From Thermoplasma acidophilum DSM 1728 (GTDB taxonomy: Archaea; Thermoplasmatota; Thermoplasmata; Thermoplasmatales; Thermoplasmataceae): DNA of 64,000 bases. The stretch covers positions 1,297,644-1,361,643 of the forward strand of contig NC_002578.1 in the NCBI RefSeq assembly GCF_000195915.1, given 5' to 3'. Made by a program: the position numbers and the translations under genes. Of this stretch, positions 8,030 to 11,239 are shown piece after piece (the first letter of the stretch is position 1; each line of letters starts with the position of its first letter). The notes below the pieces were generated by a model. That model saw only the letters and a program-made list of their open reading frames with translations, did not search any database and was not told where the DNA came from.

Positions 8030-8190
8030 GTAATGGAACAGCCGTAATGGGTAAGATAAACAATAAGAAAACGCACATAAGATGCAGAAGGTGTGGTCAT
8101 CACACATATAATGTAAGGACGAAGAGGTGCTCTCACTGTGGATTCCCTGCCCCCAGGATCAGATCCTATAGATGGGCAAAAGCCAAGTGA
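8026..8190 (+). CDS. rpl37e: Ribosomal protein L37e
   Basis: This 54-residue zinc-ribbon protein of the large subunit has C20/C23 (C-R-R-C) and C35/C38 (C-S-H-C) as the zinc ligands and a very basic composition. The ATG overlaps the LSm stop. Its last 53 nt overlap, in another frame, the start of purF. Length and motif match the family. Confidence 0.95.
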   Translation: MSNGTAVMGKINNKKTHIRCRRCGHHTYNVRTKRCSHCGFPAPRIRSYRWAKAK

Positions 8191-9562
8191 AGACTGTGCT
8201 GTTGTGGGCTTTAAGGGTAGGATCAACGCCTATGAGCCCATAATAACCGCACTGCGTACACTGCAGCACAGAGGTCAAGAATCAGCCGGTATGGCTGTTT
8301 TTGATGGCAGAAAAACTGTCCTGAAGAAGGGTCGTGGCCTTGTAACCGACGTTTTCAATCCTGCAACGGATAGCATAAAGGGCAAGGTCGGGGTTGGCCA
8401 TACCCGTTATTCTACAGCCGGTTCCAAGGACGTTATCGATGCTGGTCCATTCGTTATAAATTCCCAGGTTGGATTCATCTCTCTTTCCCATAACGGCGAA
8501 ATCGTCAACGCGGATGAGCTGAAGGAGGAGATGAAGAAGGAAGGCGTAAATTTTCAGAGTGATTCAGACACCGAGGTACTGCTCGCAGAGCTTTCAAGAA
8601 ACATTTCAAAGTACGGCCTGAAAAAAGGTTTTGAGGTGTCTATGAACACCCTCAGGGGGGCCTATGCCTGCGCAGTGGGCATAAATGACAGGCTCTTCGC
8701 CATGAGGGACCCAAACGGAATAAGGCCCCTCATCGTAGGAAAGAATGCGGATGGATACATAATAGCCAGTGAAAGCTGTGCCATAGATGCACTTGATGGG
8801 ACGATCATAAGGAATGTTGAACCCGGCGAGGTCGTTGAACTGACAGATGACGGCCTGAAGACCATAGCACTTCACGAAGGAGAGAAGACCGCACACTGTA
8901 TGTTTGAATACGTATACTTCTCAAGGCCTGACAGCACCATAGATGGCATAAATGTGTATATGGCCAGGGTCAAAATGGGCATGATGCTTGCCAAGGAGAG
9001 CCCCGTGGAGGCCGACATGGTCATACCTGTCCCCGATTCCGGTAGATCGCAGGCCATCGGGTTCTCGATGCAGTCAGGCATACCCTACACCGAAGGCTTG
9101 ATGAAGAACAGGTATTCCGAAAGAACTTTCATAATGCCTACACAAAGCGACAGAAAGGCCGCGATCAGGCTGAAGCTGAACCCCGTCAGGGAAGTCATAT
9201 CTGGTAAGAGGATTGTGCTGGTCGATGATAGCATCGTAAGGGGAAACACCATGCGATTCATCGTGAGCATGATGAGAAAGTATGGTGCGAAGGAGGTTCA
9301 TGTTCGCATAGGTTCGCCACACATAATTGCACCTTGCTATTTCGGCGTGGATATGAAGACAAAGGATCAGTTCATAGCACGCGGAAAAACGGATGCAGAG
9401 ATAAACAGCGAGATAGGAGCTGATTCGCTGGCATTCCTCTCCATAGATGGCCTCAAGGAAGCCATTGGCCTTGATGAGAATAATCTGTGTCTTGGATGTC
9501 TGACCGGCACCTATCCCATAGACATATCGAAAAAACTTGCGGAGAAGATCACGCAGTATTGA
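8138..9562 (+). CDS. purF: Amidophosphoribosyltransferase (PurF)
   Basis: The enzyme catalyses the first committed step of purine synthesis, making 5-phosphoribosylamine from PRPP and glutamine. The protein has 474 residues. The Ntn glutaminase nucleophile is C20 (CAVVGF), preceded by a 19-residue propeptide that would be removed. The phosphoribosyltransferase motif VLVDDSIVRGNT lies near residue 360. Cysteines at the end (NNLCLGCLTG) and in HCMFEY and APCYFG fit the 4Fe-4S cluster of Bacillus-type PurF. The only start codon upstream of C20 is the GTG at 8138, which has GAGGTG eight bases before it. The first 53 nt therefore lie within the L37e gene, an unusual coupling of translation and purine genes. 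Confidence 0.93.
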   Translation: MDSLPPGSDPIDGQKPSEDCAVVGFKGRINAYEPIITALRTLQHRGQESAGMAVFDGRKTVLKKGRGLVTDVFNPATDSIKGKVGVGHTRYSTAGSKDVIDAGPFVINSQVGFISLSHNGEIVNADELKEEMKKEGVNFQSDSDTEVLLAELSRNISKYGLKKGFEVSMNTLRGAYACAVGINDRLFAMRDPNGIRPLIVGKNADGYIIASESCAIDALDGTIIRNVEPGEVVELTDDGLKTIALHEGEKTAHCMFEYVYFSRPDSTIDGINVYMARVKMGMMLAKESPVEADMVIPVPDSGRSQAIGFSMQSGIPYTEGLMKNRYSERTFIMPTQSDRKAAIRLKLNPVREVISGKRIVLVDDSIVRGNTMRFIVSMMRKYGAKEVHVRIGSPHIIAPCYFGVDMKTKDQFIARGKTDAEINSEIGADSLAFLSIDGLKEAIGLDENNLCLGCLTGTYPIDISKKLAEKITQY

Positions 9563-10345
9563 TTATTTTTTAACTTTCCTTATCTTCTCTTCTATGTCCT
9601 CACGCATGGATCTTGAATCGACATGCGTGCCGAGGAGATCCGCCCTTGCCGTTATGGCTACCTTGTTGGCTATTATCCTCGCTATCCTCCCTCTTGCCTT
9701 CGGGTTCAATGCAGAGAGACCCGGAAATTTGAATATCACTCCGTACTTTGGGTTCTTCTTCCCCTGGCCGAGTGACTGGAACAGTGCCTTTTCGGCTCCG
9801 AGCATCTGGATGGAGCTGGCAGGCATCAGCGCCAACCTTCGAAGCCCCCTTGATCTTTCCAGGAGATCCATTGCCAGTTTGGGGCCAACAAGATCCGCGG
9901 TGTTTGGCATGATCTCCTTTATTCTCGTTCGTATTGCATCATCCATCTGCGATCTGAAGTCGCACATCTCTGTGCCCTTCCTGAATATCGCAGAAATATC
10001 TGGAAAAGACAAACCGTTCCTGAAGAACTGACATGGATCGCCGGACTGGCTTATTCCATATGGTATCGAAAATGGAAGGCACTTCTCATAGTATTTATTG
10101 ATGATCTCGTCCATGGCGTTCCTTACCGCCGCCACCTTTATCAGCGCCTGATCGGGGGTAAACTCTTCCCTTATTCTTTCCTTTCCATACTCTATCAGCA
10201 GTTTTCTCAGGTCCGGTATCTCTCCCATACCATCCAGTTCTGGTATCCTTCCTTCCCTCAGATCTTTGAATATCCTTATGTAATCCTGATCCAGATTTTT
10301 GAACAGCCTCTTTCCCGATCCGTACCACATTATCCTTTCCATCAT
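9563..10345 (-). CDS. Nop5-type C/D-box RNP core protein (short form)
   Basis: Nop5 binds C/D guide RNA with L7Ae and fibrillarin for 2'-O-methylation. The conserved C-terminal domain is clear: VGPKLAMDLL, LALMPASSIQMLGAEKALF, GVIFKFPGL and ARGRIARIIANKVAI (about residues 150-235). The protein is only 260 residues, whereas archaeal Nop5 is usually about 370-420. Most of the N-terminal domain that binds fibrillarin is missing and the sequence begins close to the coiled-coil region. It is the last gene of the long ribosomal operon. Its first 251 nt overlap the Cbf5 gene in another frame. No fibrillarin gene is seen in the window. Confidence 0.85.
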   Translation of the reverse strand: MMERIMWYGSGKRLFKNLDQDYIRIFKDLREGRIPELDGMGEIPDLRKLLIEYGKERIREEFTPDQALIKVAAVRNAMDEIINKYYEKCLPFSIPYGISQSGDPCQFFRNGLSFPDISAIFRKGTEMCDFRSQMDDAIRTRIKEIMPNTADLVGPKLAMDLLERSRGLRRLALMPASSIQMLGAEKALFQSLGQGKKNPKYGVIFKFPGLSALNPKARGRIARIIANKVAITARADLLGTHVDSRSMREDIEEKIRKVKK

Positions 10346-11192
10346 CAGCCTCCAGGAATATATGATCGAAATCCACTACCTTCATAAAGATGTTATCAGA
10401 GCTGCACATGGCTATGCCAGTTCCCACCAGATCGTTGTCCTCGGAGATGACGGCTACGCGTTCACCCTTCCTGAACTTTCCGTCAATTATCTTGATTCCC
10501 CCGGCATACAGATCCGATCCATGTGCTATATTCCTCATGGCGCTCCTCTTGACCACGATCTTCGGATAGTCCTTGAAGGCGTAGGTCATATCGAGTATGT
10601 GGTCCCTGAGCAGCTTATCCTCGCCCTTCCTGGCCAGTTCTACCATAGCCGCGAAATCCTGCAGTGTTATGCACCTATCCTCGGAGAATGGACCGGTTGA
10701 AGTCCTCCTCAGATCCACCATCTGCCCACCCTTTCCGGATACGTATCCGATATCCGTGCAAAGCGTGCGTATATAAGTTCCAGATTCGCATTTGACGTGA
10801 AACAGCACTAGCCTGTCTTTCTTCTCCAGGAGATCAAGCGAATACACCGTCTTGATCCTGAGGCTTCTAGCCACTGCGCTTCTCACGGGTGGCAGCTGAT
10901 ATATCCTTCCTGTGAATTTTTTGAAATAGTACCTGACCTCTTCTTCGGTTATGTCTTCGTAAAACCGCATAACACCAACATATTCCTTTGGACTCTCGTG
11001 CACAACATCCACAAGGCGGACGGCCTTGCCTATGGCCATAGTCAGGACTCCGGTCACGTTTGGGTCAAGCGTACCGATGTGCGCCACCTTCTCTATGCCT
11101 AGGATCTCCCTAACCCAGTGATCAACCTGGTGGCTGGTTGGGCCCTGAGGCTTGTCAAGCACTACGAAACCATTGATATTGGAGAAATCCAA
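10095..11192 (-). CDS. Cbf5/TruB-family pseudouridine synthase
   Basis: This is the catalytic subunit of H/ACA RNPs, which also acts on tRNA U55. The TruB fold shows GFVVLDKPQGPTSHQV at the N-terminus, the catalytic aspartate in HIGTLDPNVTGVL (about residue 43), and GTYIRTLCTDIG. A PUA domain covers about 210-280 (IVVKRSAMRNIAHGSDLYAGGI onward). The core ends near residue 282, exactly where the Nop5 start codons begin. The last 83 codons are Gly/Lys/Arg-rich and simply read the Nop5 N-terminal region in another frame. The tail may be an acquired extension or may follow loss of the original stop. No fault is visible in the core. Confidence 0.9.
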   Translation of the reverse strand: MDFSNINGFVVLDKPQGPTSHQVDHWVREILGIEKVAHIGTLDPNVTGVLTMAIGKAVRLVDVVHESPKEYVGVMRFYEDITEEEVRYYFKKFTGRIYQLPPVRSAVARSLRIKTVYSLDLLEKKDRLVLFHVKCESGTYIRTLCTDIGYVSGKGGQMVDLRRTSTGPFSEDRCITLQDFAAMVELARKGEDKLLRDHILDMTYAFKDYPKIVVKRSAMRNIAHGSDLYAGGIKIIDGKFRKGERVAVISEDNDLVGTGIAMCSSDNIFMKVVDFDHIFLEADDGKDNVVRIGKEAVQKSGSGLHKDIQRSEGRKDTRTGWYGRDTGPEKTADRVWKGKNKGRVYPRSGADKGGGGKERHGRDHQ

Positions 11193-11239
11193 GTGTATCG
11201 CCTGCGTATTTCATATCCATATTTAAATTGAGATGGCGT

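Follow-up and report, generated by a model that had tools for sequence, protein, structure and literature searches.

Results

The cbf5-nop5 locus of Thermoplasma acidophilum

The window analysed here is a stretch of 64,000 nucleotides of T. acidophilum DSM 1728, corresponding to positions 1,297,644-1,361,643 of a genome that forms one contig of 1,564,906 bases, and coordinates below are counted from its first letter. Within it, cbf5 and nop5 lie on the same strand and share part of their DNA, with the following features:

10095-11192, minus strand: cbf5 coding sequence, TTG start, 365 amino acids, H/ACA pseudouridine synthase (open reading frame, Pfam and fold match to archaeal Cbf5)
10338-11192, minus strand: folded core of Cbf5, residues 1-285, catalytic and PUA domains (AlphaFold2 confident to about residue 286)
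10095-10337, minus strand: Cbf5 tail, residues 286-365 and stop, predicted to be disordered, basic, lying wholly inside nop5 (pLDDT, charge and comparison of 42 genomes)
9563-10345, minus strand: nop5 coding sequence, 260 amino acids from the first ATG, box C/D core protein (open reading frame, Pfam Nop and fold match to Nop5/Nop58)
10095-10345, minus strand: putative two-frame coding region, 251 nt (open reading frames; open-frame, silent-site and charge tests)
10340-10342, minus strand: likely nop5 start ATG, conserved in the genus (common to L005-L009)
10349-10353, minus strand: GGAGG, likely Shine-Dalgarno sequence for nop5, within cbf5 and 6 nt 5' of the conserved ATG (sequence and predicted 16S pairing)

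The shared stretch (251 nt, with the Cbf5 stop included) is read for nop5 in the cbf5 frame +1. A sequence-only reading of this DNA had described a 251-nt overlap of Cbf5 and Nop5 in different frames, and the ORF calls bear out both its coordinates and its description; the ORFs also agree that Cbf5 codon 283 falls at the first Nop5 ATG and that 83 codons follow. The same reading held that the overlap joins the H/ACA and C/D cores. This is true of the gene order, but nothing that we saw indicates that the two RNPs are physically connected.

The upstream nop5 ATG (10343-10345) is absent from congeners, and the ATG at 10340-10342 is present in them. As only the latter is genus-wide, the overlap at the level of the genus is 248 nt. 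The predicted pairing of GGAGG with the 3' end of 16S rRNA (-9.3) is among the best 6% for start-like codons in cbf5. Since this motif stands 6 nt before the ATG, within cbf5 codons, nop5 would be initiated internally. The Shine-Dalgarno sequence is strong in Thermoplasma and weak in some of the overlap genera.

Two features flank the pair. A TATA-like sequence, AATTTAAATA, is found at 11220-11229 on the minus strand, about 30 nt 5' of the cbf5 TTG start, and from this spacing cbf5-nop5 may have its own promoter and a very short leader. At the other end, the nop5 stop abuts the end of a convergent plus-strand ORF (8138-9562; junction 9562/9563), which is PurF-like (amidophosphoribosyltransferase) by sequence.

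Cbf5 and Nop5 match known core proteins, and the Cbf5 frame encodes a basic tail

The protein identities proposed in the sequence-only reading were confirmed by Pfam, with TruB_N, TruB_C_2 and PUA (residues 210-268) above cut-off in Cbf5, and Nop, the C-terminal RNA- and L7Ae-binding domain (E = 3.5e-34), in Nop5. The catalytic motif GTLDP of Cbf5 (G40-T41-L42-D43-P44) is invariant among 14 and among 30 sequences, and a fold search matches the protein to archaeal H/ACA Cbf5. For Nop5, phmmer matches to archaeal Nop5 chains begin at residue 115-134, and a Foldseek fold search returns archaeal Nop5/Nop58, with 3pla first. Nop5 is compact (260 amino acids), and its N-terminal region, where a fibrillarin-binding domain would lie, is short although folded in the model, as in other families of the order. 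The genome has a fibrillarin gene, located away from nop5.

AlphaFold2 models residues 1-286 of Cbf5 with high confidence and gives residues 287-365 a pLDDT below 50, that is, predicted disorder; Nop5 is modelled confidently throughout, including the overlapped N-terminal region. As had been noticed from the letters, the tail is rich in Gly, Lys and Arg: residues 286-365 are 26% K+R and 19% G, with a net charge of +10. Cbf5 tail composition is R 16%, K 15%, G 11% and E+D 11%, and the tails inspected in the family contain no KKE/D repeats. No Pfam domain matches the tail above cut-off. RsbRD_N was considered as a tail domain and rejected, because its match (E = 0.002) is below its own cut-off and came from the Nop5-frame reading of the overlap. 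We therefore describe the shared DNA, on sequence and model evidence, as encoding a predicted folded N-terminal region in the Nop5 frame and a predicted disordered, Lys/Arg/Gly-rich C-terminal tail, kept open and basic, in the Cbf5 frame.

We also considered whether Nop5 might really start downstream of the overlap. This was rejected: in most groups, conservation of the overlapped region roughly equals that of the remaining protein, and the region is common to non-overlap relatives and is confidently folded.

The overlap recurs across the family

We searched 77 genomes of the family, found Cbf5 in 72 of them, and found cbf5 and nop5 together at the junction in 69 loci. An overlap of about 185-250 nt (counted across the family from the onset of Nop5 homology) is present in 42 of the 69 junction genomes, including Ferroplasma acidarmanus Fer1 (L155) and Acidiplasma aeolicum (L115), and its relative frame never differs. 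The remaining 27 include Cuniculiplasma sp. (L148) and E-plasma (L131); in these 27, Cbf5 stops at, or close to, the conserved point where homology to Nop5 sets in, which limits any overlap to a few tens of nucleotides. These 27 genomes have a similarly basic Cbf5 tail, encoded in the DNA before nop5. The median tail charge is +14.5 in the 42 overlap genomes versus +15 where the tail is encoded before nop5, and K+R content is 31% versus 33%. As the tail is present in relatives without the nop5 overlap, it is the tail itself that is the conserved trait. The sequence comparison thus presents the tail as family-wide and the overlap as the way in which many genera encode it.

The first Cbf5-frame stop within nop5 lies at codon 61-83 in all 42 overlap genomes, and the homologous frame of the 27 non-overlap genomes reaches a stop by nop5 codon 28. 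In the non-overlap relatives cbf5 and nop5 encode separate proteins, and in some of these genomes they stand in another relative frame. Three non-overlap loci of the E-plasma group (L043, L051 and L053) have a basic Cbf5 tail of 276-278 residues before nop5, far beyond that of the rest of the family. At one further locus (G057:C1:42967-43809), in a genome that is 50% complete, Cbf5 matches in three overlapping pieces, perhaps owing to an assembly error.

The Cbf5 frame is kept open and basic inside nop5

In the overlapped part of nop5 we observed no Cbf5-frame stops in the 42 genomes, against about 198 expected from synonymous codon shuffling. Nop5 downstream of the overlap (213 stops observed, 246 expected) and the non-overlap relatives (128 observed, 149 expected) served as controls. 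The third frame over nop5 codons 1-60 of the overlap genomes showed no avoidance of stops (242 observed, 160 expected); its excess appears to be a side effect of the two-frame constraint. Given its Nop5 protein, the probability that the frame would be open is about 0.01 for T. acidophilum alone, and the median per overlap genome is 0.0015.

Silent sites give a second line of evidence. Silent changes in nop5 codons 4-64 occur at 0.48 of expectation in nine overlap groups (0.35-0.84 each) versus 1.06 in nine non-overlap groups, and the drop in the overlap groups ends near nop5 codon 66-78, the position of the Cbf5 stop. Among 250 silent differences in the overlap none creates a Cbf5 stop, compared with 12.5% downstream. 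Stop avoidance alone is too small to halve the silent rate, which suggests that the tail residues are constrained too. However, read in the Cbf5 frame, the silent changes of the overlap do not tend to preserve residue class, so it is openness and composition that appear to be kept, rather than an exact sequence; the idea that the tail is kept residue by residue is unsupported. Composition was assessed by exact sampling of open frames, in which tail charge averages +13.8 versus +7.6 expected and lies above expectation in 42 of 42 overlap genomes, versus just 4 of 27 non-overlap relatives in the same frame. Shared ancestry means that the genomes cannot be counted as independent, but a set of 18 lineage representatives leads to the same result.

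Both frames are thus open across divergent genomes (42 of 42), with frame-specific purifying selection inside the overlap, and by these sequence tests the 5' end of nop5 is under constraint in two frames at once. The long two-frame coding region, one of two options in the sequence-only reading, is supported by this constraint and by the same open overlap in 41 further genomes.

Origin of the tail and of the overlap

In a sister family (L077, L083, L093 and L094), nop5 directly follows cbf5, Cbf5 terminates with a YPxxWK-type segment, and neither a tail nor a long overlap is present. This adjacency indicates that the cbf5-nop5 neighbourhood is older than the overlap. Elsewhere in the phylum, the basic tail is absent from the 17 Cbf5 loci with long open frames. 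A phylum-wide tail was rejected for this reason: those 17 frames are long only upstream, and have short ends after a YPxxW-type motif. As this sister family and these 17 loci of other families lack the basic tail, it most likely arose on the stem of the present family. On the rooted trees the overlap state has to change twice, and one clade for all overlap genomes is not rejected (AU p = 0.36); a single gain is therefore as compatible with the trees as is one gain plus one loss.

The sequence-only reading had proposed that Cbf5 lost its stop. The loss itself is supported, although as an old, family-level trait and not as a recent event in a single genome. A stop near codon 283, which that reading had proposed to look for in relatives, occurs in none of the 41 further overlap genomes.

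Discussion

In our judgement, the overlap is very probably a selected, same-strand overprint, in which Cbf5 reads into nop5 for a basic, disordered and presumably RNA-binding tail, and nop5 starts internally. In an ancestor of the family, Cbf5, encoded next to nop5, would have shed its former C-terminus together with the stop and acquired a basic tail; in many genera this tail now runs on into nop5. One message would carry both genes. Ribosomes translating cbf5 would pass the PUA domain and continue in the Cbf5 frame to the stop within nop5, adding the tail, and other ribosomes would initiate nop5 at the internal ATG, with its Shine-Dalgarno sequence inside cbf5. Translation of both products, with internal initiation, is what the sequence suggests. 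The tail may then serve as an electrostatic, polycationic arm with which the H/ACA enzyme holds guide or ribosomal RNA, perhaps substituting for contacts lost with the usual Cbf5 C-terminus. We regard this role as somewhat better than an even prospect, from the charge and predicted disorder of the tail, and a tail that is basic, selected for charge and predicted to be disordered is compatible with it and with the RNA binding that the sequence-only reading had suggested.

Several other explanations were weighed. That the overlap stems from a faulty read or assembly, or from a stop lost recently in this genome alone, has nothing in its favour beyond the oddity itself, and with the overlap shared by 41 further genomes we consider error ruled out and this explanation as a whole practically negligible; the sequencing change suggested in the sequence-only reading falls with it. 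The Cbf5 frame might instead be open by composition only, and the tail a neutral by-product of the lost stop. The purine-rich first positions of Nop5 codons do make peptides in the Cbf5 frame somewhat basic (hence the expected +7.6), but the shuffles found no stops for 198 expected while the downstream, third-frame and non-overlap controls behaved normally, relatives without the overlap run into a stop in that frame by codon 28, and the silent-site constraint stops where Cbf5 does. Openness by chance composition is thereby ruled out, and a neutral tail is very improbable. Constraint near start codons is generally common, so an RNA element or codon choice near the nop5 start, and not a second protein, could in principle restrain silent sites; yet the constraint extends for about 65 codons and is not seen in relatives without the overlap, only one frame avoids stops, and charge is selected too, all of which leaves this explanation with little credence. 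We think it equally doubtful that programmed frameshifting in the overlap yields a Cbf5-Nop5 fusion. A one-base shift would indeed join the frames, but nop5 comes with a separate start, which in Thermoplasma is preceded by a strong Shine-Dalgarno sequence, and non-overlap relatives make separate proteins, some from another relative frame.

A more serious alternative accepts dual coding and differs over its purpose. The tail might not bind RNA directly but act in protein contact, condensation, stability or solubility, or the overlap might be kept mainly to couple Cbf5 and Nop5 output. The same facts on stops, silent sites and charge apply here, and eukaryotic lysine-rich tails have been linked to rRNA-proximal targeting and condensation (PMC11528048). 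However, 27 genomes keep the tail without a long overlap, so coupling alone cannot explain the tail. We give this alternative a real but clearly minor share of our confidence, and continue to favour overprinting of a presumably RNA-binding tail.

Eukaryotic Cbf5/dyskerin, Nop56 and Nop58 carry lysine-rich, disordered KKE/D tails (PMC11528048). The archaeal tail resembles these in its predicted disorder and positive charge, and in its place behind the PUA domain of the H/ACA enzyme. However, it has Arg as commonly as Lys, is Gly-rich, lacks KKE/D repeats and is partly encoded inside another gene. As it is confined to one archaeal family and missing in sister families, its origin would be independent of that of the eukaryotic tail, and by analogy it may work in a similar way. 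More speculatively, and in our view with odds clearly below even, the family may have arrived on its own at an equivalent of the polycationic tail of eukaryotic snoRNPs, overprinted in the gene of the partner machine, with H/ACA and C/D cores produced from one message, their output coupled, and lineages switching between overprinted and dedicated coding.

Compared with the archaeal Cbf5 proteins of Pyrococcus and Methanocaldococcus (3hax, 2apo), Thermoplasma Cbf5 has the same catalytic and PUA domains (40-41% identity in structural alignment) but lacks the usual YPxxWK-type end and has a tail of about 80 residues. Terminal extensions of Cbf5 have been treated as a eukaryotic feature (PMC7991803), and such extensions have been stated to be absent from archaeal snoRNP proteins (PMC11528048); a conserved Cbf5 tail in this family contradicts both. 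It also makes the family an independent archaeal setting for studying the role of polycationic tails on H/ACA enzymes.

Among unidirectional prokaryotic overlaps, 3' extension of the upstream gene was the commoner route in simulation, and overlaps of >60 bp are treated as selected against (PMC3887535). The present case shares with these its same-strand neighbours and extended upstream gene. Typical overlaps are mostly of 1 or 4 nt, however, whereas the cbf5-nop5 overlap measures 185-250 nt, is conserved in many genera and shows selection specific to the frame. When a cellular genome contains a long same-strand overlap, annotation error is often blamed. Here, sister clades that have the tail without the long overlap provide a natural control, which makes dual coding demonstrable from sequence alone, and the locus is a clear case of folded and disordered protein segments on shared DNA. 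That two core RNP genes should share so long an overlap, conserved and under selection, is surprising, and the case lends itself to direct tests. A literature search, with most subscription papers outside its reach, found no published report of a cbf5-nop5 overlap.

Finally, the H/ACA partner Gar1 is short here (a 68-codon open frame, G000:C1:1009522-1009710) and below the Pfam cut-off, as in most of the family, which suggests that the H/ACA particle may be pared down.
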